Of a DNA stretch of 64,000 nucleotides, positions 956-45,440 are shown piece by piece; the stretch's first letter is position 1, and the number at the start of each line of letters is the position of its first letter. The DNA is from Leptolyngbya sp. SIO1E4 (GTDB lineage Bacteria > Cyanobacteriota > Cyanobacteriia > Phormidesmidales > Phormidesmidaceae). The notes beneath the pieces are model-generated. The model had not been told where the DNA came from and searched no databases. It saw only the letters and a program-made list of their open reading frames with translations. The translations under genes and the position numbers were made by a program. The stretch is from NCBI GenBank assembly GCA_010672825.2, contig JAAHFU020000002.1, positions 322,001-386,000 of the forward strand, written 5' to 3'.

Positions 956-1129
956 CCCAGTCTAATGCAAACAAGACCGGCCAAGGCGAAGCGACTTAGC
1001 CTGGGTTTGATCAGGTTAAGTATCTCGATGCTGTAAAGGATTGCGTTTGCAGGCCCTAAGCGCTGTATGGATGCTATGGACTGAGATTTAGGTTGAAAAG
1101 AGTTGGCAGGTCGCTGGTGATTTTTGGCT

Positions 1130-1255
1130 GTTGAGATAATATGCGGAAACCTGCTTGCGATCAGACAAATCAGGATGGATATGCAGATACTTTCGGCGTA
1201 TCTACCCTATTCAGGACAATATACGGAAACTATCTGTCTAACAACATTGTTAGAC
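1130..1255 (+). other. attI-like module at the head of the GrpB/VapBC cassette array
   Basis: The module ends in GTCTAACAA-CA-TTGTTAGAC (1236-1255), a perfect 9-bp inverted repeat containing an RYYYAAC and a GTTRRRY core. The upstream part (ACTTTCGGCGTATCTACCC, then GGAAACTATCTGTCTAAC) matches in layout the minus-strand module at 15693-15768. The first cassette (GrpB) starts just after the GTTAGAC core. Calling it an integration platform is inference; no integrase gene is present in the window. Confidence 0.5.
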
Positions 1256-1312
1256 CGCTTAAGGTTATCTGTAAGGTAGTAGTTTATACGCTATCAGTGA
1301 GACGCTCAAGTC

Positions 1313-1861
1313 ATGAGGAAAGTAGAAGTTGTCCCGCATGACCCAAAATGGCAGGAAGCGTTCGAGTTTGAATCGAAACAAGTCACTGCTGCTCTGGGCA
1401 AGAATGTTGTTGCTGCACACCACATTGGCAGCACAGCCATTCTCCGCATACACGCTAAGCCAATTATCGATCTGTTAGTTGAGGTTAAAGACGTTCTTAA
1501 AATTGATGAACAGAATACATTAATGGAGCTATTGGGTTACGAAGTAATGGGTGAGTTTGGAATCTCTGGTCGCCGATTCTTCCGTAAGGACAATAAAGAA
1601 GGCATTAGAACGCATCACATCCACATCTTCACCGTTGGTTCGGATCAAGTAAAACGTCACCTAGCATTTCGAGATTACATGATTGCTCATCCTGAAGATG
1701 CACAGAGCTACAGCGAGTTGAAGCAAAGATTAGCAAGAGAATATCCCACAAATATTGATGGATATATGGATGGAAAAGATGAATTCATTAGAGAAATAGA
1801 TAAGAAGGCGGCACAATGGAAAGCATTACAAACATCTGCAGCCAGCGATCTAACAAGTTGA
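1313..1861 (+). CDS. GrpB family protein (nucleotidyltransferase fold)
   Basis: A 182-aa GrpB/UPF0157 protein with the family's HIGSTA...KPIIDLLV core near residues 37-54, which corresponds to a nucleotidyltransferase-like fold; the physiological substrate is not established. The C-terminal codons run into the attC site at 1848, as is typical of a gene cassette. The left cassette core is GTTAGAC (1249) and the right one ATCTAAC (1848), close to complementary. The N-terminal VEVVPHDPKW-like opening agrees with the ATG at 1313. It is probably expressed from outside the cassette or from a weak own promoter. Confidence 0.85.
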   Translation: MRKVEVVPHDPKWQEAFEFESKQVTAALGKNVVAAHHIGSTAILRIHAKPIIDLLVEVKDVLKIDEQNTLMELLGYEVMGEFGISGRRFFRKDNKEGIRTHHIHIFTVGSDQVKRHLAFRDYMIAHPEDAQSYSELKQRLAREYPTNIDGYMDGKDEFIREIDKKAAQWKALQTSAASDLTS

Positions 1862-1933
1862 TGAAGCGGACAGTTGAGAGATATAGGTTAGGTTGCCAAA
1901 GTTATCTACTGCCGCTTATCTTGGTCGTTAGCT
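1848..1933 (+). other. attC recombination site after GrpB
   Basis: R'' core ATCTAAC (1848-1854) and R' core GTTAGCT (1927-1933) enclose imperfectly complementary arms: AAGCGGACAG against CTGCCGCTT, with one unpaired A. Unpaired bases in the arm are the hallmark of single-stranded attC hairpins. It overlaps the GrpB stop codon. Confidence 0.8.
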
Positions 1934-1973
1934 GGCTTACTCCACAGAGTTGCCATGCAGACTGATCGCCCCT

Positions 1974-2028
1974 GCTAAAAAGTAGCTTGCTGAGCAACGA
2001 CTGCTGGGTCAGCAAGCTACTTTTTAGC
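1974..2028. terminator. Perfect 20-bp inverted repeat (possible terminator or cassette promoter element)
   Basis: GCTAAAAAGTAGCTTGCTGA at 1974-1993 is exactly repeated in inverse orientation at 2009-2028, with a 15-nt loop. No T-run follows on the plus strand, so termination is uncertain. It lies inside the VapBC cassette, before the antitoxin. Confidence 0.5.
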
Positions 2029-2156
2029 ATAGAGTCAGGTTTGTTTGATATTTAAGATTTCCTGAAACAGGATTCTAAAGCCAGTAAGACCTGATGCAAA
2101 GCCCAAACAACTAGCGAGAATAAAATAGAAATGATTCCCCTTCAGTCTTTTTAGCC

Positions 2157-2402
2157 ATGTTCAGCACCACCTTAACTGATACCGGACAAATCACGCTACC
2201 AGAAGAAATTCGGCAGCATCTGAAGCTGACCAGCGGTAGCCGGATCGAGTTCATCATTGACGAAAATGGGCAGGTAAAAATCTTTCCCCTCAATGTGGCT
2301 GTAGAAACTCTATCTGGCATCCTGCAGCAGTCTGGTACCCACCCAACCAGTATCGAAGATATGGATGCCGCCATTGCCGAGGGCGCGAATGATTGGGCTT
2401 GA
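2157..2402 (+). CDS. AbrB/MazE-type antitoxin
   Basis: An 81-aa protein with a swapped-hairpin AbrB N-terminus (TLTDTGQITLPEEIRQHL near residues 5-22) for DNA binding and a C-terminal tail that should mask the partner toxin. It overlaps the PIN toxin by 14 nt, so the two are translationally coupled. Such pairs usually repress their own promoter. It belongs to a cassette bounded by cores at 1927 (GTTAGCT) and 2786 (AGCTAAC), which are exact complements. Confidence 0.85.
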   Translation: MFSTTLTDTGQITLPEEIRQHLKLTSGSRIEFIIDENGQVKIFPLNVAVETLSGILQQSGTHPTSIEDMDAAIAEGANDWA

Positions 2403-2778
2403 TACCAACATTCTGGTGCGCTACCTCACTCGCGACGATGAGCAGCAATGGCGACAAGCTGCCGATTTGATTCAGCAAAACCAGGCTTGTTTTATTGCAA
2501 ACATCGTCCTTTGTGAACTAGTTTGGGTGCTTAGAGGGATAAACTACCGTTTCCAGAAAGAAGAAATTGTCAGCGTTCTGGAGGCGATGCTTCACAGTGC
2601 TGCATTTGAATTTGAAAACCGTTCAACTTTGGATCAAGCCCTTCAGCGATACAAACAGGGAAAAGCAGACTTTTCTGATTATCTAATTGGGACGGTATCT
2701 CGACAGGCAGGTTGCACTGCAACTGCAAGCTTCGATGGCAAATTGAAAGGTGAGAAAGGATTTCGCTGTCTGGAATAG
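2389..2778 (+). CDS. VapC-type PIN-domain ribonuclease toxin
   Basis: 129 aa from ATG 2389 (MIGLDTNILVRYL). PIN acidic residues are visible: LDTN near residue 4, a central E in LCELVW, and D in DYLIG and ASFDGK near the end. It presumably cleaves RNA when free of its antitoxin. The internal ATG was preferred to the upstream in-frame ATG at 2365 because PIN domains begin with the hydrophobic strand leading to DTN. The gene ends 8 nt before attC 2786-2872. Confidence 0.85.
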   Translation: MIGLDTNILVRYLTRDDEQQWRQAADLIQQNQACFIANIVLCELVWVLRGINYRFQKEEIVSVLEAMLHSAAFEFENRSTLDQALQRYKQGKADFSDYLIGTVSRQAGCTATASFDGKLKGEKGFRCLE

Positions 2779-2785
2779 TGCTACC

Positions 2786-2872
2786 AGCTAACACTGCGTG
2801 GCAGCGGACGGAGAAGAGGTTATCAATAGGTGTTCAAGGTTATTTGCCCGCTGCTGCACTTCACCGTTAGAG
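2786..2872 (+). other. attC recombination site after VapBC
   Basis: R'' AGCTAAC (2786-2792) and R' GTTAGAG (2866-2872). The arms GGCAGCGGAC and GCCCGCTGCTGC pair imperfectly. The R'' core is the exact complement of the cassette's own first core, GTTAGCT, at 1927. Confidence 0.8.
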
Positions 2873-2890
2873 GCCCTTTCTCGTTCCCTT

Positions 2891-3868
2891 CTACAGGGCC
2901 ACGGAGGCTAAAAACGGTCTGATGGTCTCTGCCACAGTGTCCCCATATTCCTCTGCCTGGCCTAAGGTGCCGGGTAAACGGGTGGATTGCACCTCAGGAA
3001 GCGCCACCATTGCTTCCATTTCCGCTTTAGAGGCGGGGGGAGCTTGCTCTGCTACAACGGCCATCACCGGACAGGCAAGCGACTCAAGGCACTGCAGAAA
3101 CGCCTCGCGGCTCGGCACTGGATCGAGCCCTCCCGTCACAAAAGCGGCAGGGGCATAGCGGGCTCCGGGCTGCTGGGTGCTCTTGTGGCGCTGCTGGATG
3201 TAGTCTGGCGTCAGGCGCTGCTCATCCACAAAAACATGGCGACGATACATCCACTTGAGAAAGGCAGGGTGGGTATTGAGGCCGTAAAGGAACTGACCCA
3301 AAACCGGGGTTCTCACCAATTCCTTGATGCCCGATCGCACGGTTGGGGGGACTCCCATGACCGCCAGTGGCCCCCGCCAGGTGGGAGCAACCAGCACGAG
3401 TTTGGAACAGGTTGTGGGCTGATGAGCGGCTAAGTTCAGCGCATAGCCTGCGGCATGGCCCGCCGCCACCACGGCTACTGGCGTCTCAAAAATTGCGGCC
3501 ACAAAATCCTGCAAAAACTGGGTATATAGCGCTGGACCGTAATTGAGCGGGCGGCGGTCAGATTCCCCAAAGCCGGGCCAGTCAAGAGCTGTGACTTGAA
3601 ACTGAGGCACTAAACCCGCTGCCAGATCTTTCAGTTCTGCTCGGTTCGAGACCGTGCTGAAGGCCGGTAGCAGCAGCACCGGTTCTCCCTCACCCACCGT
3701 TTCGTAGGTCACCGTCAGGCATTGCCCCTGCCATTGCCAGTCAAAGGTTTGGGCGGTGCCGTCGAGCTGAGACTGTGGAGGGGATAGGGTGCGATGGTCG
3801 TTGACGTAGTCTCCCCAAAGGGGATAGATCGGCCCCAAAGGGCCATCGCGCTCTACTGTTCTGGTCAT
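2891..3868 (-). CDS. Alpha/beta-hydrolase-fold protein lacking the nucleophile serine
   Basis: 325 aa with the alpha/beta hydrolase plan: VLLLPAFSTVSNR oxyanion-loop region near residue 65, DWPGFGESDR near 95, and a nucleophile elbow reading AGHAAG instead of G-x-S-x-G near 137. The usual C-terminal catalytic His position reads GTLGQAEEY. With Ser and His both absent, catalysis by the standard triad is not expected. It is the last gene of the Zur-controlled hemB unit, 12 bp after the orphan at 3881. Possible roles are a binding protein or a non-canonical enzyme; no substrate can be inferred. Confidence 0.8.
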   Translation of the reverse strand: MTRTVERDGPLGPIYPLWGDYVNDHRTLSPPQSQLDGTAQTFDWQWQGQCLTVTYETVGEGEPVLLLPAFSTVSNRAELKDLAAGLVPQFQVTALDWPGFGESDRRPLNYGPALYTQFLQDFVAAIFETPVAVVAAGHAAGYALNLAAHQPTTCSKLVLVAPTWRGPLAVMGVPPTVRSGIKELVRTPVLGQFLYGLNTHPAFLKWMYRRHVFVDEQRLTPDYIQQRHKSTQQPGARYAPAAFVTGGLDPVPSREAFLQCLESLACPVMAVVAEQAPPASKAEMEAMVALPEVQSTRLPGTLGQAEEYGDTVAETIRPFLASVAL

Positions 3869-3880
3869 AGGAATCCCTCT

Positions 3881-4261
3881 TTACCTAGTAGCATTATCCA
3901 TTGCTTCTAAGAGTAGAAAATCCTTGTCGCTGATTAAGACTTTCTGGAAATGACACTCACCCCAAAAACCCTGGAGTGCAGATTGTTTACCGATGCGTTG
4001 ATAAATCTGACCGGGCAGTAGCCCCCAACAGCAATAAGGCCAGTTGGTCGCCATGGCAGCTCGATTGCTTAAAACCCATCCTCCCGGCTGAATCACTACC
4101 GCTGGATGGGGGCGACTCATGATCCAGGCTTTGGTGGCGGCCTTTAAGCAAGACTGCAAATCACTGGTTTGCCACATGGCTCCACTCAAATGTCGGAGTT
4201 GGTAAGTGCCATCCGACAGGGGCAGAATGCAACATTCCAGAAAGTTCATCGCATCGTTCAT
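3881..4261 (-). CDS. Conserved-looking orphan protein in the hemB unit
   Basis: 126 aa from ATG 4261, 4 bp after the hemB stop; a longer start at 4300 would overlap hemB. No family was recognised. It has several cysteines (ECCILP near residue 8, a Cys after SDLQ, YCCWGLL near 75, GECHFQK near 100) that could bind a metal, and no signal peptide or membrane helix. Tight spacing on both sides makes it part of a hemB-orphan-hydrolase operon under the Zur box at 5330. Confidence 0.75.
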   Translation of the reverse strand: MNDAMNFLECCILPLSDGTYQLRHLSGAMWQTSDLQSCLKAATKAWIMSRPHPAVVIQPGGWVLSNRAAMATNWPYCCWGLLPGQIYQRIGKQSALQGFWGECHFQKVLISDKDFLLLEAMDNATR

Positions 4262-4265
4262 CCCC

Positions 4266-5759
<1,494 letters not shown>

Positions 5760-17860: not shown

Positions 17861-18049
17861 ATGCCTACCGTCCAGCACTACGCAACCAATTATCTGGAAA
17901 ACGTCAAGGTGACGCTGATTTCTCCGAGCCAAACGCTAGCGTCATCAGCGGTGGAATATTGCATTGCCAGCGGATACGTCAAAATCATGCCCGCTGATGG
18001 TCGCACACTGATTACCCACATCAGCAACGTCGTCATTGAAGTGATCTGA
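17861..18049 (+). CDS. Small 62-aa orphan
   Basis: Family not recognised. ATG 17861 has GAGG 9-10 nt upstream. The product opens MPTVQHYATNYLENVKVTLI and ends in a valine/isoleucine strand, consistent with a small beta-rich protein; one cysteine, no metal motif. It lies 79 bp after thrS and 1 bp before the FGE-like gene, so co-transcription is likely. Moderate doubt because of its size. Confidence 0.5.
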   Translation: MPTVQHYATNYLENVKVTLISPSQTLASSAVEYCIASGYVKIMPADGRTLITHISNVVIEVI

Positions 18050-18050
18050 T

Positions 18051-18911
18051 GTGACAAGTGTAATGTCTTTTGAGTTTGAGACAGTTTATCTCAACGGATT
18101 GGGTCAAGTCAGTGAATCTTCTCGCCATACTGGAAGCTGTTTCACGGAAGAACTGGCACGTGGAGTCAATATAGAGTTGATTTGGATTCCAGGCGGATCG
18201 TTTTTAATGGGTGCCGCTTCTGATGAAATAGGGCATTCCTCAGATGAGATACCTCAACATCCTGTGACAGTTAACGCTTTTTGGATGGGTAAGTTTTTGG
18301 TGACACAGGCTCAGTGGAGCGCGATCGCTGATCTTCCTTTAATTCGTGATGAACTAGAGCTAATTCCCGCCTGCTACCGGGGGGCTGATCACCCAGTTGA
18401 GCAAGTCTCCTGGTTTGAAGCGATCGAGTTTTGTGAAAGACTAGCAACCAAAACAGGTCGCTCTTATCGATTGCCCAGCGAAGCAGAATGGGAATATGCC
18501 TGTCGTGCTGAAACGTCTACCCCATTTTATTTTGGAGATGTCCTCACTCGATCGGTGGCGAATTACAACAGTCAAGCCAGAATCAGTAAAACCCAGAAAC
18601 GCGGAAAGCAGACAACCCCCGTCGGCAGCTTTGGGATTGCCAATGCGTTTGGTTTGTACGATATGCACGGCAATGTTTACGAATGGTGTGCAGATCATTG
18701 GCATGTTAACTATTATGGCGCTCCAACCGATGGTACAGCCTGGATTTGGGATGGGGATTCAACTCGACGAGTCATTCGTGGCGGCTCCTGGAATGATTTT
18801 GCGGCAAACTGCCGGTCAGCGTTTCGTGCTCCGGATGATGCAGAAGATGGGCATGATGATTTGGGATTTCGAGTTGTTTGTCAAGATGTCGGCATTCTGG
18901 AGCGACATTGA
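18051..18911 (+). CDS. Formylglycine-generating-enzyme (SUMF1/EgtB-fold) protein
   Basis: 286 aa with the FGE-sulfatase domain throughout: IWIPGGSFLMGAASDE near residue 45, QHPVTVNAFWMGKFLVTQAQW near 70, RLPSEAEWEYACRA near 145, NAFGLYDMHGNVYEWCADHW near 200, RVIRGGSWNDFAANCRSAFR near 245. These are calcium-binding C-lectin-like folds; members include enzymes and non-catalytic effectors. The catalytic copper Cys pair of true FGE is not evident, so the activity is unassigned. An in-frame ATG at 18063 is an alternative start. Confidence 0.85.
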   Translation: MTSVMSFEFETVYLNGLGQVSESSRHTGSCFTEELARGVNIELIWIPGGSFLMGAASDEIGHSSDEIPQHPVTVNAFWMGKFLVTQAQWSAIADLPLIRDELELIPACYRGADHPVEQVSWFEAIEFCERLATKTGRSYRLPSEAEWEYACRAETSTPFYFGDVLTRSVANYNSQARISKTQKRGKQTTPVGSFGIANAFGLYDMHGNVYEWCADHWHVNYYGAPTDGTAWIWDGDSTRRVIRGGSWNDFAANCRSAFRAPDDAEDGHDDLGFRVVCQDVGILERH

Positions 18912-41010: not shown

Positions 41011-41072
41011 ACTAACTATGGCCTTCTCCAAAAGCTTCATCCCGGAAATCATCCCGGAAATCAGCAATACCG
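40978..41072 (+). repeat. Left copy of a ~80-bp inverted repeat flanking the CHAT block
   Basis: The stretch with GAGGGATGAACGAATTTCAG and ACTAACTATGGCCTTCTCC recurs inverted at 45451-45532. ATCCCGGAAATC is doubled in this copy. Confidence 0.8.
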
Positions 41073-41252
41073 GCGATGCGTTTCGAGTAGCGACGAGTTC
41101 AGGAACGTATGGCTTAGAAGAGGTGCCAGGGTGTCAGGTACGTTACTTATGGCAGCCGTTTGATCGAGAGCCCGCTTGGACGGAGGAAAGCGTGGGCAAA
41201 AGTTGTGGCCGCAGGGCCAAGAACCTAATGAACGCTGACAGCTGACAGATTC

Positions 41253-41312
41253 CCAAAAGAGTCAGCTATCAGATAAAGAAATCCAAAAGAGTCAGCTATC
41301 AGATAAAGAAAT
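41253..41312. repeat. 30-bp direct tandem duplication
   Basis: Two exact copies of a 30-bp unit starting CCAAAAGAGTCAGCTATCAG, in the spacer before the trypco2 gene. Confidence 0.9.
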
Positions 41313-41458
41313 ACAAGAATAAAAGATCTAATGTACTGCTTCTAAGTGCTATTACGTAATCGATATCACAGCGATTTATCAAATAGGTCACTGTTTGACT
41401 TGAAATAGTTGATGTATGCTGCGTGACGAGTAGTCGCAACAGTGATGAAGAGGGTGTC

Positions 41459-41848
41459 ATGGTTGCTGATAATCGCGGAAGTTCGATTGGTTTATCTGAA
41501 CTGATCGAGCAGGTGAAGCAAGAATTACTATCTACAACTCCTAGCAAAGACAATGTGCCAATCTTGTGCGTTGATTCCGTGGAATTGCAGTTACAGGTGA
41601 CGGTTCGACGAGAAGACAGAGGCGGTCTAAAAGTCAATGTGGTCTCTGTTTTAAGCGGAGAAATGAGCGATGGAGTGAGCCGAGACGATGTGCATCAAGT
41701 CAAGGTAACATTATCTCCGCTATTCGATAAAGCTCAGCTAGTGGAGTGGTACAAAACCCTCTACCCGAATGAGGTATTGCCAGCAGTGAAGTCAAGTCTC
41801 GATAGCTTGATGAAGGGTGAGGAAGGCAACCTGGCAGCGAGGTTCTAG
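41459..41848 (+). CDS. Trypco2-domain protein
   Basis: 129 aa from ATG 41459. IGLSELIEQVKQELL near residue 10, then VDSVELQLQVTVRREDRGGLKVNVVSVLSG and HQVKVTLSPLF follow the trypsin-co-occurring domain 2 plan, a small beta-sandwich found beside proteases and caspases in bacterial conflict systems. It ends 4 bp before the CHAT-caspase gene, so the pair is an operon. It may act as an adaptor or regulatory subunit for that protease. Confidence 0.8.
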   Translation: MVADNRGSSIGLSELIEQVKQELLSTTPSKDNVPILCVDSVELQLQVTVRREDRGGLKVNVVSVLSGEMSDGVSRDDVHQVKVTLSPLFDKAQLVEWYKTLYPNEVLPAVKSSLDSLMKGEEGNLAARF

Positions 41849-41852
41849 TGCT

Positions 41853-44258
41853 ATGCTAGACCCGCATCTCTTAGAGCTTCACCTGACGCCATTAGAGTCA
41901 GGAAACTTCCGGATCATCGTGAGCCAGGCCATTCCTTCCATTGATGGCGATGCTGATTCAAGGCTACCGTTTTGGGAAGATGGCAAAGATTGGCGCACGA
42001 CCATTATTAAAACACTGGAAAGCACGCAGTTTTTTCCTAAAAATTTTCCTGAGCTGGGCGAGCAGGATTGGATGATCCGAAATGAAATCCTAACCTCTGA
42101 TCGCCAAAGCTTTCATCCCAGCTATTTAGAGACCATTGGCAGATCCTTATACGAGTCTTTATTGCCACCTGGTAGCTCACTGAGGGATGCCTTTAAGACA
42201 GCACTACGTTCCGCAGAAAGAGAGAACAAAGATCTCCACCTCCGGCTTAAATTTCCGGGTGATTCCGTCAGTCGTTCTCAATTGGCTGATTATCCGTGGG
42301 AGTTAATCCACAACAAAACTCACTTTTTGCAGCATCGGTCAGTGCAGATCTCACGCTACATTGCCCATGAGATTGCCTGCCCTATTTTGCCCACCCATGA
42401 GCAAATCCAAGTTTTCCTCATCTCTTCGCGGGCTGCAGACATTGCCAGAGGGTTGCAGCCTCTGCCTGATGATGAGGAGCGATCAATTCTGACGGGAATT
42501 GCCAAGGCCCAGGAGGAGGGATTGGTGACATTCGAGCAACTGCGCAATCCCACTCGAAAACGCCTAAGCCGACACCTCACTGAATGTACTTCTGTGCCTC
42601 AAATCCTGCATTTTGATGGCCATGGTCTGTTTGGCCGGAAGTGTAACAACCCTGAATGTCGGCATATGAATCCCGGCATCAAGCGCGAAAAATGCGAAGA
42701 ATGCGGCCACCAGCTCCCTGAGCCCAAAGGATACTTACTCTTTGAAGACGAGGGTGGTGGCGTTGACTATGTTAGTGCGTCGTCTTTTGCCGCTTTGCTC
42801 CCCAGAGGGGTTAAGCTAGTGGTTTTGAGTGCATGCCAATCGGGCATGGCGCTGGGCGGGGAATCGATTTTTAATGGCACAGCGCAACAGCTTATTGATG
42901 CTCGCATACCGGCTGTAGTGGCGATGCAGTATTCGGTACTGGCGAATGCAGCTAGCAATTTTGAGGAACAGTTTTATCGAGTTTTGGGCCAGAAGAAAAC
43001 GCTATTGGAGGCGATCAGCGCTGGACGCAAGTGGATGGAGGTGGATAGCAACCAGTGGTATCGTCCCGTTTTGTATTTGCGCTGGCAAGATAATCATGGC
43101 GGTTCTCTATTTACGCGAGAAAGATCGAGACACAGTCCTGAATTAGATAAAAGTAAGCCTGGCCAGACTCAAGATGACATACAAGAATGTCCCTCCAGTC
43201 CTCAAGCTTCCAAAACCGGTCGTAAAATAGCTCTTTTAATTAGCGTAAGTCGTTATGGATATGGTTTCTCAGACCTTCCTGGCTCGGAAAAAGATGTTCA
43301 TTTGATTGAGCAAGTACTCTCATCCAAGGATCTAGGAAACTTTGATGAAGTAGTGCCATTGTTCAATCCAGACACAAAAAAAATACATCATGCGATAGAA
43401 AGACTGCTAACTGGTCGAAACGAGGATGACCTAATCCTTTTATATTTCTCAGGTCATGGAGTGAAAAGCAACAAAAATCGGCTCTATCTAACCACTTGCG
43501 AGACAGCAAAGAAACGAGATGGCTCCTTAGATGAGTTATCTGCAATTCCAGCTCAGTTTATACATGACGCAATGGACAGATGCCAATCGAGGCAACAAAT
43601 AGTTGTGCTCGATTGTTGCTTCAGCGGTGCATTTTCAGACGATTTAGTAGCTAAAGATGATGGTTCACTAGACGTTGGCTTTCAGCTCAATGGAGAGGGT
43701 AGAGTGATATTATCCTCCTCCACTTCACTTGAGTCCTCTTTTGCTTCTAGAAATGAAGGCTCATCAATTTATACAAAATATTTTGTCAAAGGCATTTGTA
43801 CTGGCAAAGCTGATATTAATCGCGACAGGAGAGTTTCAGCGAATGAACTTCACAGATATATTCAAGAGCAATTAAGAGAAGAAAAATTCTCAATGACACC
43901 AGGTATTTTTTTTAGAGGGGAAGGTACTGATATCCCAATAGCAGATGTCCCTAAGAAGCCAGTAGACTATGATGCTCTTAGAGCAGAGATAGATAAATCT
44001 ATTTCATCCAAGCGTATTTGGGCTCAGATTCCTAACAAAGCCATCTTCGCCTTCATACTTATCGTCACACTTACAGCTTTCGCTGTCTCTTTGTTTCAAA
44101 TAATGAGAATTCGTTGTAATACGATCAAGGATTCGATAACTTATAGTGAAGATTCCGATCGCTCTGACGAAAAATTGTTCGAGAAATACAGAGGCGAAAA
44201 AAAGAGTCTTCAAAAGCGTGTGTGTAACTGGGTTGGGGTTCCCTTACCTCGATACTAG
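41853..44258 (+). CDS. CHAT plus caspase (C14) double-protease protein with C-terminal membrane helix
   Basis: 801 aa from ATG 41853. The first half is a CHAT domain with catalytic His in HFDGHG (His253) and Cys in SACQSG (Cys328); between them is a four-cysteine zinc ribbon (CNNPEC...CEEC). The second half, from RKIALLISVSRYGYGF near 453, is a metacaspase-like domain with YFSGHG (His535) and LDCCFSG (Cys588/589). A single transmembrane helix (IFAFILIVTLTAFAVSLF) lies near 730, followed by a basic tail. Both dyads look intact. Likely a membrane-tethered cell-death or defence protease triggered with the trypco2 partner. Confidence 0.9.
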   Translation: MLDPHLLELHLTPLESGNFRIIVSQAIPSIDGDADSRLPFWEDGKDWRTTIIKTLESTQFFPKNFPELGEQDWMIRNEILTSDRQSFHPSYLETIGRSLYESLLPPGSSLRDAFKTALRSAERENKDLHLRLKFPGDSVSRSQLADYPWELIHNKTHFLQHRSVQISRYIAHEIACPILPTHEQIQVFLISSRAADIARGLQPLPDDEERSILTGIAKAQEEGLVTFEQLRNPTRKRLSRHLTECTSVPQILHFDGHGLFGRKCNNPECRHMNPGIKREKCEECGHQLPEPKGYLLFEDEGGGVDYVSASSFAALLPRGVKLVVLSACQSGMALGGESIFNGTAQQLIDARIPAVVAMQYSVLANAASNFEEQFYRVLGQKKTLLEAISAGRKWMEVDSNQWYRPVLYLRWQDNHGGSLFTRERSRHSPELDKSKPGQTQDDIQECPSSPQASKTGRKIALLISVSRYGYGFSDLPGSEKDVHLIEQVLSSKDLGNFDEVVPLFNPDTKKIHHAIERLLTGRNEDDLILLYFSGHGVKSNKNRLYLTTCETAKKRDGSLDELSAIPAQFIHDAMDRCQSRQQIVVLDCCFSGAFSDDLVAKDDGSLDVGFQLNGEGRVILSSSTSLESSFASRNEGSSIYTKYFVKGICTGKADINRDRRVSANELHRYIQEQLREEKFSMTPGIFFRGEGTDIPIADVPKKPVDYDALRAEIDKSISSKRIWAQIPNKAIFAFILIVTLTAFAVSLFQIMRIRCNTIKDSITYSEDSDRSDEKLFEKYRGEKKSLQKRVCNWVGVPLPRY

Positions 44259-44332: not shown

Positions 44333-44668
44333 TTAGTCATCAACGTTAACTGAACAGATCACAGGGCTAGAAAAGTTGCGAGGACAACCTAAATAATCGT
44401 CAGTGATCCACGCTTCTCTTCCTTCATATCTAATCTTGTACCATCCACTTTCATTTGAATATTCCGGAGGGTGATGTTCGAATACCCTCACAGAGGTATT
44501 TTCAGGAATAGTGCCTACAGTTCTGCTAAAGCCAGCGTTCTCGTATATGTCGACACCATTTAATTGGGCACTCGCATCTCCTCCGACAGCAGAGCAAGCC
44601 GTAATACTCATTAAGCACATTAATATGAAGCAGAAGCCAGCAAAAGATTTTGCATAAGAAACATTCAT
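44333..44668 (-). CDS. SH3-domain lipoprotein
   Basis: 111 aa. Type II signal peptide with lipobox LMSITAC (Cys near residue 25), so membrane-anchored outside the cytoplasm. A bacterial SH3 domain follows: NVxIYENAGFSRTVGTIPENTSVRVFEHH and WYKIRYEGREAWITDDYL. Two cysteines near the end (LGCPRN...VICSV) may pair. It converges on the CHAT-caspase gene; a functional link is not evident. Confidence 0.82.
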   Translation of the reverse strand: MNVSYAKSFAGFCFILMCLMSITACSAVGGDASAQLNGVDIYENAGFSRTVGTIPENTSVRVFEHHPPEYSNESGWYKIRYEGREAWITDDYLGCPRNFSSPVICSVNVDD

Positions 44669-44862: not shown

Positions 44863-45440
44863 TATGACCTATCGCAAAAAGCTCATCGAAGTGGCCCTAC
44901 TGCTGGAGGCCATCAACATGGAATCGGTGCGGGAGAGAGTCGATTCGGCATGGGTACCCGAGGGCGCGGCGACCGTTGGCGGCGTGTCGGGTAGTGTTGT
45001 GGTCGTCGCTGGTGGATGATCCGTCGAGCTGGCTAGAGCGGTTTCCGACGGAGGAGGCACAGAAACGGGAACGGCAGCAGCTGTTTGACAGCCTGGGACG
45101 GATCACCATCGAGACGGATCGCAAAGGCAAGGAAAAGCAGGAGGTGCGGGAGTTGGTGTCGTGGGATGACATCAAAGACCCGGCCATCATTGAGGAGGCT
45201 CAGCGGGAGATTGCGAGCTCCCTGGCCTGCGGCTGGGGAGAGAAACCGCCGACCAAACCGGAAGTGGTGCGGGAGTACAGCGCCCAGCACGCGCCCCCGA
45301 TTTATGCCCCCTTTGCAGGAGGGCGGCTCGATACCACTGAAGGCGCAGCGGTTGATGCTAGAGGCCCACGCTAGCTCCTGAACCCGGTGGCGGTGTTGAT
45401 TAACAAGGCGTTGATTGAGATTCCGCCGAAGCTTATTTAG
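44863..45440 (+). pseudogene. DUF1156 (methyltransferase-associated) gene, multiply frameshifted
   Basis: The start MTYRKKLIEVALLLEAINMES is family-typical. The frame then shifts near 44935 with loss of about six residues, continues RARRPLAACRVVLWSSLVDDPSSW and REYSAQHAPPIYAPFAGG, shifts again to GGSIPLKAQRLMLEAHAS, and once more to LLNPVAVLINKALIEIPPK before ending at 45440, just before the inverted repeat. The bulk of the normal protein is gone. Confidence 0.8.

Follow-up and report, generated by a model that had tools for sequence, protein, structure and literature searches.

What can one bacterial protein do with two proteases and a membrane anchor? The question is raised by a gene on a 64,000-nucleotide (nt) stretch of Leptolyngbya sp. 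SIO1E4 (the window, whose positions are used for all coordinates), which encodes a CHAT protease and a caspase in a single chain, followed by a transmembrane (TM) helix and a short tail (Table 1). A gene for a Trypco2 protein lies directly upstream, a small lipoprotein-like gene converges on the end of the protease gene, and remnants of an Hma operon (DUF499, BREX-related) flank the group. We read the locus as a membrane-anchored, protease-based suicide module, acting in abortive infection or addiction, that was inserted in the Hma operon, a reading that in this specific form stands evenly poised between right and wrong. The broader view that it belongs to a conflict system, already put forward in the initial annotation, is well supported by the position in a defence operon, the linkage to Trypco2 and the swapped C-terminal modules of its relatives; the locus probably serves cell suicide or antiviral defence, as a new form of a familiar type of system. 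The lipoprotein gene, the Hma stubs on either side and the cassette nature of the Trypco2-CHAT pair are additions to that annotation.

Table 1. Features of the protease locus and its flanks (window positions)
Feature	Position	Strand	Evidence or remark
HmaA (helicase) C-terminal stub, aa 1134-1176 of 1192	41069..41197	+	tblastn with Nodosilinea HmaA, 47% identity, E 2e-6
Trypco2 protein, 129 aa	41459..41848	+	Pfam PF19631, E 1.7e-18, 67.1 bits against a cut-off of 24.2
CHAT-caspase-TM-tail protein, 801 aa	41853..44258	+	intact open reading frame (ORF), ATG 41853 to stop 44258
CHAT domain, aa 140-400	42270..43052	+	Pfam CHAT, E 2.7e-25; fold match SAVED-CHAT 8tl0
H257 codon (putative CHAT dyad)	42621-42623	+	
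Four-cysteine knuckle inside CHAT domain (C264, C269, C281, C284)	42642..42704	+	
C328 codon (putative CHAT dyad)	42834-42836	+	
Linker between proteases, aa 423-454	43119..43214	+	predicted local distance difference test (pLDDT) <50 in model
Caspase domain, aa 457-685	43221..43907	+	Pfam Peptidase_C14 PF00656, E 1.9e-19; NCBIfam NF047832
H535 codon (putative caspase dyad)	43455-43457	+	
C589 codon (putative caspase dyad)	43617-43619	+	
Transmembrane helix, aa 730-748	44040..44096	+	single hydrophobic 19-mer, mean hydropathy 2.61
C-terminal tail, aa 749-801, 53 residues, cysteines 755 and 791	44097..44255	+	alignments
Small SH3_3-like protein, 111 aa, lipobox ITAC (by eye), two C-terminal cysteines	44333..44668	-	Pfam E 3.8e-7
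Broken HmaB (DNA methylase) N-terminus, aa 1-196 of 985	44864..45434	+	tblastn with Nodosilinea HmaB, 69-88% identity, E 5e-69

Are both halves built as proteases? The initial annotation had recognized CHAT and caspase in one chain, a C-terminal membrane helix and a trypco2 gene 4 nt upstream, all of which hold, and had named two Cys-His dyads, which are indeed present and conserved but with one residue of each better read otherwise. H257 and C328 are invariant in the CHAT alignment (48 of 48 rows), and so is H253, the histidine originally chosen. Because one of the two patterns used in the scan for relatives required HFDGHG, the conservation of both histidines is to some extent a product of the search; neither pattern included C328 or the knuckle cysteines. 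The CHAT pair is best read as H257/C328, the sequence alone also allowing H253; we take H257 to be the catalytic histidine on general knowledge of such motifs, since it holds the G-H-G position in HFDGHG, as in the SGHG of the caspase half. In the caspase alignment, whose 42 rows include two pairs that are the same gene fetched twice, H535 and C589 are kept in 40 rows, with gaps in the other 2, and C588 is kept in 35, with 2 gaps and 5 other letters; the pair is best read as H535/C589, the predicted nucleophile being C589 rather than C588. Neither dyad thus proved to be non-conserved among homologues. The zinc ribbon annotated in the CHAT part survives as four cysteines, 264, 269, 281 and 284 (kept in 48, 48, 47 and 48 of 48 rows), at a probable zinc site.

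The folds point the same way. A structure model made from 45 sequences, of which only two span the caspase, has a mean pLDDT of 72, with both protease halves mostly above 70 and the linker and a loop at residues 592-634 below 50. The solved folds closest to the caspase half are MALT1, a paracaspase (Z 21.6 over 199 residues, 2.3 A), together with metacaspase 4 (Z 19.7). The CHAT half comes closest to SAVED-CHAT 8tl0 (Z 18.9 over 187 residues, 2.7 A); a sequence search of solved structures with the protein and with Trypco2 gave no useful match. The caspase half also exceeds the cut-off of NCBIfam caspase_w_EACC1 (NF047832; 152 bits against 140), which makes it a caspase of the EACC1-associated type. 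Proteolytic activity of both halves is a prediction from fold and His-Cys dyads. MALT1 and metacaspase 4 prefer a basic P1 residue, and from the likeness in fold to these enzymes and from D587, which adjoins the nucleophile and is kept in 40 of 42 rows (2 gaps), the caspase would be expected to cut after Arg or Lys.

Is Trypco2 a chance neighbour? A scan of a genome collection (84,980 species) with patterns drawn from the CHAT-half alignment gave 53 loci, 47 of them close and all of these cyanobacterial, at 38-57% identity by best segment; the six distant loci (L077-L082) are left out of every count based on the 47, and L009, L010 and L011, apparently the same records as L047, L071 and L070, are not recounted. 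In 40 of these 47 loci the ORF immediately before CHAT is a Trypco2. The remaining seven comprise L039, L062, L069 and L075, with at most 116 nt of upstream sequence, and L057, L061 and L068, with 3.5-6 kb free of a Trypco2 match. What follows CHAT varies. Clustering of all 47 loci (the CHAT ORF is cut off by the end of the locus in 3) and Pfam scans of 20 gave classes that include NB-ARC, NACHT or nSTAND ATPases, DUF4062 and TPR, as well as CHASE2, FGE, EAD1, EAD2, EAD9, bDLD3, TIR with EAD9, and VMAP-M1 with VMAP-C; the C-terminus of L046 has no Pfam match. Trypco2-CHAT is thus a recurring cyanobacterial cassette with a swapped C-terminal slot, and Trypco2 is likely a regulator or adaptor of the CHAT protease. 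The window's Trypco2 has no TM stretch; we assign it no fold because its model is poor (mean pLDDT 55) and a fold search returned a best E of 0.31. In L032 CHAT is fused to DUF4062, with a weak AAA match. The available part of one paper describes DUF4062 as an NADase, TIR-like, that belongs to an antiphage system (PMC13174449).

Searching 386 genomes of the phylum with PF19631 approached the same question from the other gene, and gave 14 places in 13 genomes. At six of them Trypco2 precedes CHAT: the window, L009-L011, L118, where the CHAT protein carries VMAP-C, and L119. Another seven precede large proteins with a common N-terminus, of which the two that are readable hold a Trypsin match above the Pfam cut-off of 20.6 (L112, 21.6 bits; L114, 25.2 bits), and in L113 the best 25 of 69 families are mostly WD40 and other propeller models. 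By these counts, CHAT and trypsin-type genes have roughly equal shares of the Trypco2 genes sampled. At the last place, L117, the next ORF is cut by the contig end and resembles a CHAT N-terminus by eye, with no Pfam match. At L119 (4989-10272) the order is Trypco2, a CHAT-SIR2_2 protein and an nSTAND1-WD40 protein, and L112, on contig C4 of the window's own genome, is a second Trypco2 there, next to a gene that matches trypsin, NB-ARC and TPR.

These arrangements recall the Trypco2/trypsin and VMAP ternary systems of Kaur et al. 2020 (PMC7159879), in which, as far as the available text goes, Trypco2 likewise adjoins a peptidase gene with variable partner domains, and the MoxR ATPase relatives present in 17 of the 47 CHAT loci are a further likeness. 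That text, however, ties Trypco1/2 to trypsin-like peptidases and caspases to an alpha/beta-hydrolase and makes no mention of CHAT, whereas the Trypco2 partner in the window is CHAT, not trypsin. Given the varied C-termini and the MoxR-linked loci, CHAT here looks like a general effector protease of their conflict network, with Trypco2 as its companion, and the cassette with its swappable end would broaden Trypco2 beyond the trypsin-like peptidases of that eLife 2020 paper. Could the protein then be activated in trans, as a remote effector of a MoxR-vWA-VMAP or STAND network whose genes lie in other parts of the genome? Its CHAT half does group with CHATs of MoxR-linked loci (L030, L031, L033, L036), but we think this very unlikely: Pfam finds no EAD or death-like domain in the chain, the tail and lipoprotein may supply an input of their own, and the window (the extent of this search) has no MoxR or VMAP relative by one MoxR and two VMAP queries at E 1e-6, and so does not qualify as a VMAP ternary system. 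The vWA-protein query from L070 has a sole match in the window, an ORF at 18045-18908, probably by way of its FGE part; this ORF likely encodes an FGE-type protein.

What might the membrane end do? The full-length tail occurs in 4 of 63 genomes of the family: the window's, that of Nodosilinea LEGE 07088 (L053/L126), which holds the one full-length relative of the fused protein (51% identity), and two in which it ends a stand-alone caspase (L123 and L124). Cysteines 755 and 791 are common to all four proteins, and a TM stretch rises above threshold in the window, L126 and L123. The lipoprotein-like gene faces the end of the caspase gene across 74 nt in the window, 34 nt in L126 and 58 nt in L124. 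A profile built from these three copies matches 5 of the 63 genomes, namely all four with the caspase-TM-tail and one weakly (E 5e-5), which is the only match among the 59 genomes lacking the tail. The fourth tail genome (G397) was outside the profile set and still matches at E 1.6e-12, on a contig other than that of its caspase; since the gene lies beside an ArsR-type gene there, as in L124, it is probably the same locus parted from the caspase. An ORF adjoining it was considered as a transposase and set aside, Pfam giving only DUF6399, a family of unknown function. The copies have diverged: that of L124 is 16% identical to the window's, L124 and G397 have no Pfam match, and the SH3_3 match of L126 falls below the cut-off. 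From its lipobox, seen by eye, the protein would sit outside the cytoplasmic membrane, on the same side as the tail if the proteases are cytoplasmic, which would make the tail periplasmic.

The two-gene EACC1- and EACC2-caspase systems are similar in outline (PMC7159879, PMC8195603; available text): a constant gene, a constant protease whose C-terminus varies, and membrane association, to which the NF047832 score of the window's caspase can be added. They differ in that the window's 5' gene is Trypco2 without a TM stretch, so that the locus lacks the EACC1 5' gene, and in that a CHAT protease precedes the caspase.

Where the cassette sits is, together with its partners, the strongest part of our reading. 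On the Nodosilinea contig the order is HmaA, Trypco2, CHAT-caspase, lipoprotein, HmaB, with only the lipoprotein gene on the opposite strand and with HmaC (1114 aa, 1104 bits) on the same contig and strand; HmaA (1676 bits), HmaB (1220 bits) and HmaC are long intact ORFs, a complete Hma set. In the window the intact cassette is instead flanked by remnants, a 43-residue piece of HmaA, recovered also in a whole-genome search (E 4.8e-5), and an HmaB N-terminus interrupted by a change of frame and by an internal stop, and the genome holds no HmaB match at E 1e-100 and no DUF499 match; an intact Hma set is thus absent. Between the HmaA stub and Trypco2 lies a 30-bp tandem repeat of 2.1 copies (41253-41316). 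Hma has been named as a candidate system (PMC8565338), and its helicase has been confirmed in phage defence by a later study, according to the available text of PMC12839542. As in our locus, these two papers, in the parts at hand, place effector modules between core genes of Hma/DUF499 and BREX-related operons as backup suicidal effectors; those described in PMC12839542 are nucleases, whereas the window cassette encodes proteases, and the main text, as available, does not mention a caspase.

HmaB occurs in 1 of the 63 family genomes and 18 of the 386 phylum genomes, and 16 of the 18 loci were fetched (L168-L183). Six have PIN, HicA, Phd-like, XRE or HEPN/MNT genes in the HmaA-HmaB junction (L171, L175, L178, L179, L181, L182), two a PDDEXK_3 ORF (L172 by Pfam, L180 by similarity) and one a methyltransferase ORF (L169); the gap is below 400 bp in L168, L170, L174 and L177, with a partial PIN match in that of L170, and the junction is disturbed or cut in L173, L176 and L183. 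In a control with eight query genes taken from the junctions themselves, a circular choice although their own places were excluded, six matches fell in 14.5 kb of junction (two of them of PDDEXK_3 type, not toxins by name), a single one in 181 kb of sequence from those loci (located upstream of HmaB, where a contig ends) and none in 534 kb of CHAT loci.

Is the cassette then chiefly an addiction unit that stabilizes its locus in the manner of toxin-antitoxin genes, the antitoxin being Trypco2 or the lipoprotein, with phage defence a secondary role? It occupies a slot that holds HicA, PIN or HEPN/MNT genes in the six loci just named, it has stayed intact in the window with both Hma neighbours broken, and Trypco2-CHAT also occurs on a mobilizable plasmid. 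Its likeness to toxin-antitoxin genes is confined to this slot, however, and many Trypco2-CHAT loci look sensor-driven, 17 of 47 with a MoxR relative, unlike simple toxin-antitoxin pairs; we consider an addiction role of this kind distinctly unlikely. The plasmid in question is p057_M of Nostoc sp. C057 (L149, pair at 1125-4755), typed as mobilizable.

How would a suicide module of this design work? Trypco2 would keep the CHAT protease silent or dock it; the tail and the SH3-like lipoprotein would most likely sense a signal at the membrane, which would free CHAT; CHAT would then cut and activate the caspase of the same or a neighbouring chain; and the caspase would cleave cell proteins, so that growth stops. 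Such an in-chain cascade, suggested in outline by the initial annotation, is plausible and forms the weakest part of our reading. We favour it because of the two intact dyads, the likeness to SAVED-CHAT and the mode of action of that family, which is stated in a citing text, available in part, to provide immunity through a cascade of proteolytic activity.

SAVED-CHAT and PCaspase of type III-B CRISPR, said to be the work of Steens et al. in 2024, reportedly place CHAT and caspase proteases in one pathway. The fold of the window's CHAT matches SAVED-CHAT, as noted; the difference is that there each protease is a protein of its own and a nucleotide signal is detected by a SAVED domain, whereas here they share one chain with a membrane anchor. 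Neither Pfam nor NCBIfam finds a SAVED domain in the window protein, and its PADLOC SAVED_CHAT match is limited to residues 322-410 (E 0.004). If the relay is real, it would offer a small, one-gene system, with single mutations enough to separate the initiator from the executioner protease.

A bolder version, which we regard as unlikely, has the one-chain initiator-executioner relay, gated by the lipoprotein across the membrane, standing guard over the Hma operon: a phage that disables the operon, or injury to the envelope, would lead CHAT to fire the caspase and the cell to die. That the window's cassette is intact while its Hma neighbours are broken makes the strict form, with the cassette firing upon loss of Hma, less likely. 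Were the guard version true, the locus would add proteases to the backup suicidal effectors found inside BREX-related operons, otherwise described as nucleases in the available text, and would be a bacterial caspase cascade within a single polypeptide. Searches of an open-licence library brought up no paper on the combination seen at this locus, which joins three topics so far treated separately: regulators of the Trypco2 type, proteolysis passing from CHAT to caspase, and suicide modules set inside defence operons. Trypco2 also stands at a locus with a CHAT protein in DGR2 of Thiohalocapsa PB-PSB1 (PMC10907252, available text), which differs in that CHAT is there part of a diversity-generating retroelement target with TIR, as opposed to CHAT-caspase-TM.

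Might the protein instead be a housekeeping membrane protease, for example in cell division or differentiation? The cyanobacterial protein HetF is a divisome component in a paper that, in its available part, uses the term CHAT domain. For our protein such a role is barely credible, in view of the position in a defence operon and a patchy distribution: relatives of the CHAT half at E 1e-60 occur, besides the window's own genome, in at least 3 of the 386 phylum genomes (two candidates scored per genome) and 6 of the 63 family genomes; the fused form occurs in 2 of the 63 in all. The search for the same architecture found CHAT with caspase only in the window and Nodosilinea. Viral contigs gave 19 pattern matches with no relative among them, phage records one CHAT-only match (26% identity, E 2e-17), and plasmids four matched records, none spanning 80% of the query. 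A single-sequence search with the tail gave five weak matches in the phylum genomes outside the window's own, some with stops, and these were not used.

Several results weigh against the suicide module proposed here. The Trypco2-CHAT-caspase cassette is absent from all 16 other HmaB loci, and the association consists of two loci that may descend from one ancestral insertion. A caspase is present in just one of the 47 CHAT relatives, with the truncation of three of those ORFs to be borne in mind, and 38 of 41 caspase ORFs begin the caspase within 43 residues of their start, that is, without CHAT, the other three being the fused L126 and two partial ORFs. The linker differs between the window protein and L126, with no conservation, and by the hydropathy threshold applied to the other tail proteins L124 has no TM stretch. 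The same separateness of the halves, the unconserved linker and the stand-alone caspases that share the tail, in two genomes that also have the lipoprotein, favour two proteases acting in parallel, the fusion bringing both effectors, with separate targets, to the membrane under one sensor. Set against this is the CHAT fold, nearest to a family said in the partly available source to act by proteolytic cascade; we hold parallel action to be possible, if doubtful.

Phylogeny adds to these reservations about the suicide module. In a caspase tree of 40 rows the four tail proteins form one clade (97/94), within which the two fused proteins are sisters (100/99), whereas their CHAT halves are not sisters (approximately unbiased (AU) test, p 0.0186, on 17 of the 48 rows, picked after a first tree had been seen, and with long branches). 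A single origin of the fusion is thus unsupported on the CHAT side. The discord suggests either that one lineage replaced its CHAT half or that the fusion formed on two occasions, and the CHAT-caspase pairing may for this reason not be one old adapted unit; if the fusion was re-formed, we speculate that the pairing itself may be favoured. At the stand-alone loci (L123:1278-2003, L124:9002-9736) a gene of about 243 codons overlaps the start of the caspase-tail ORF from upstream and looks coiled-coil-like by eye; its product is perhaps the caspase's own partner, replacing CHAT.

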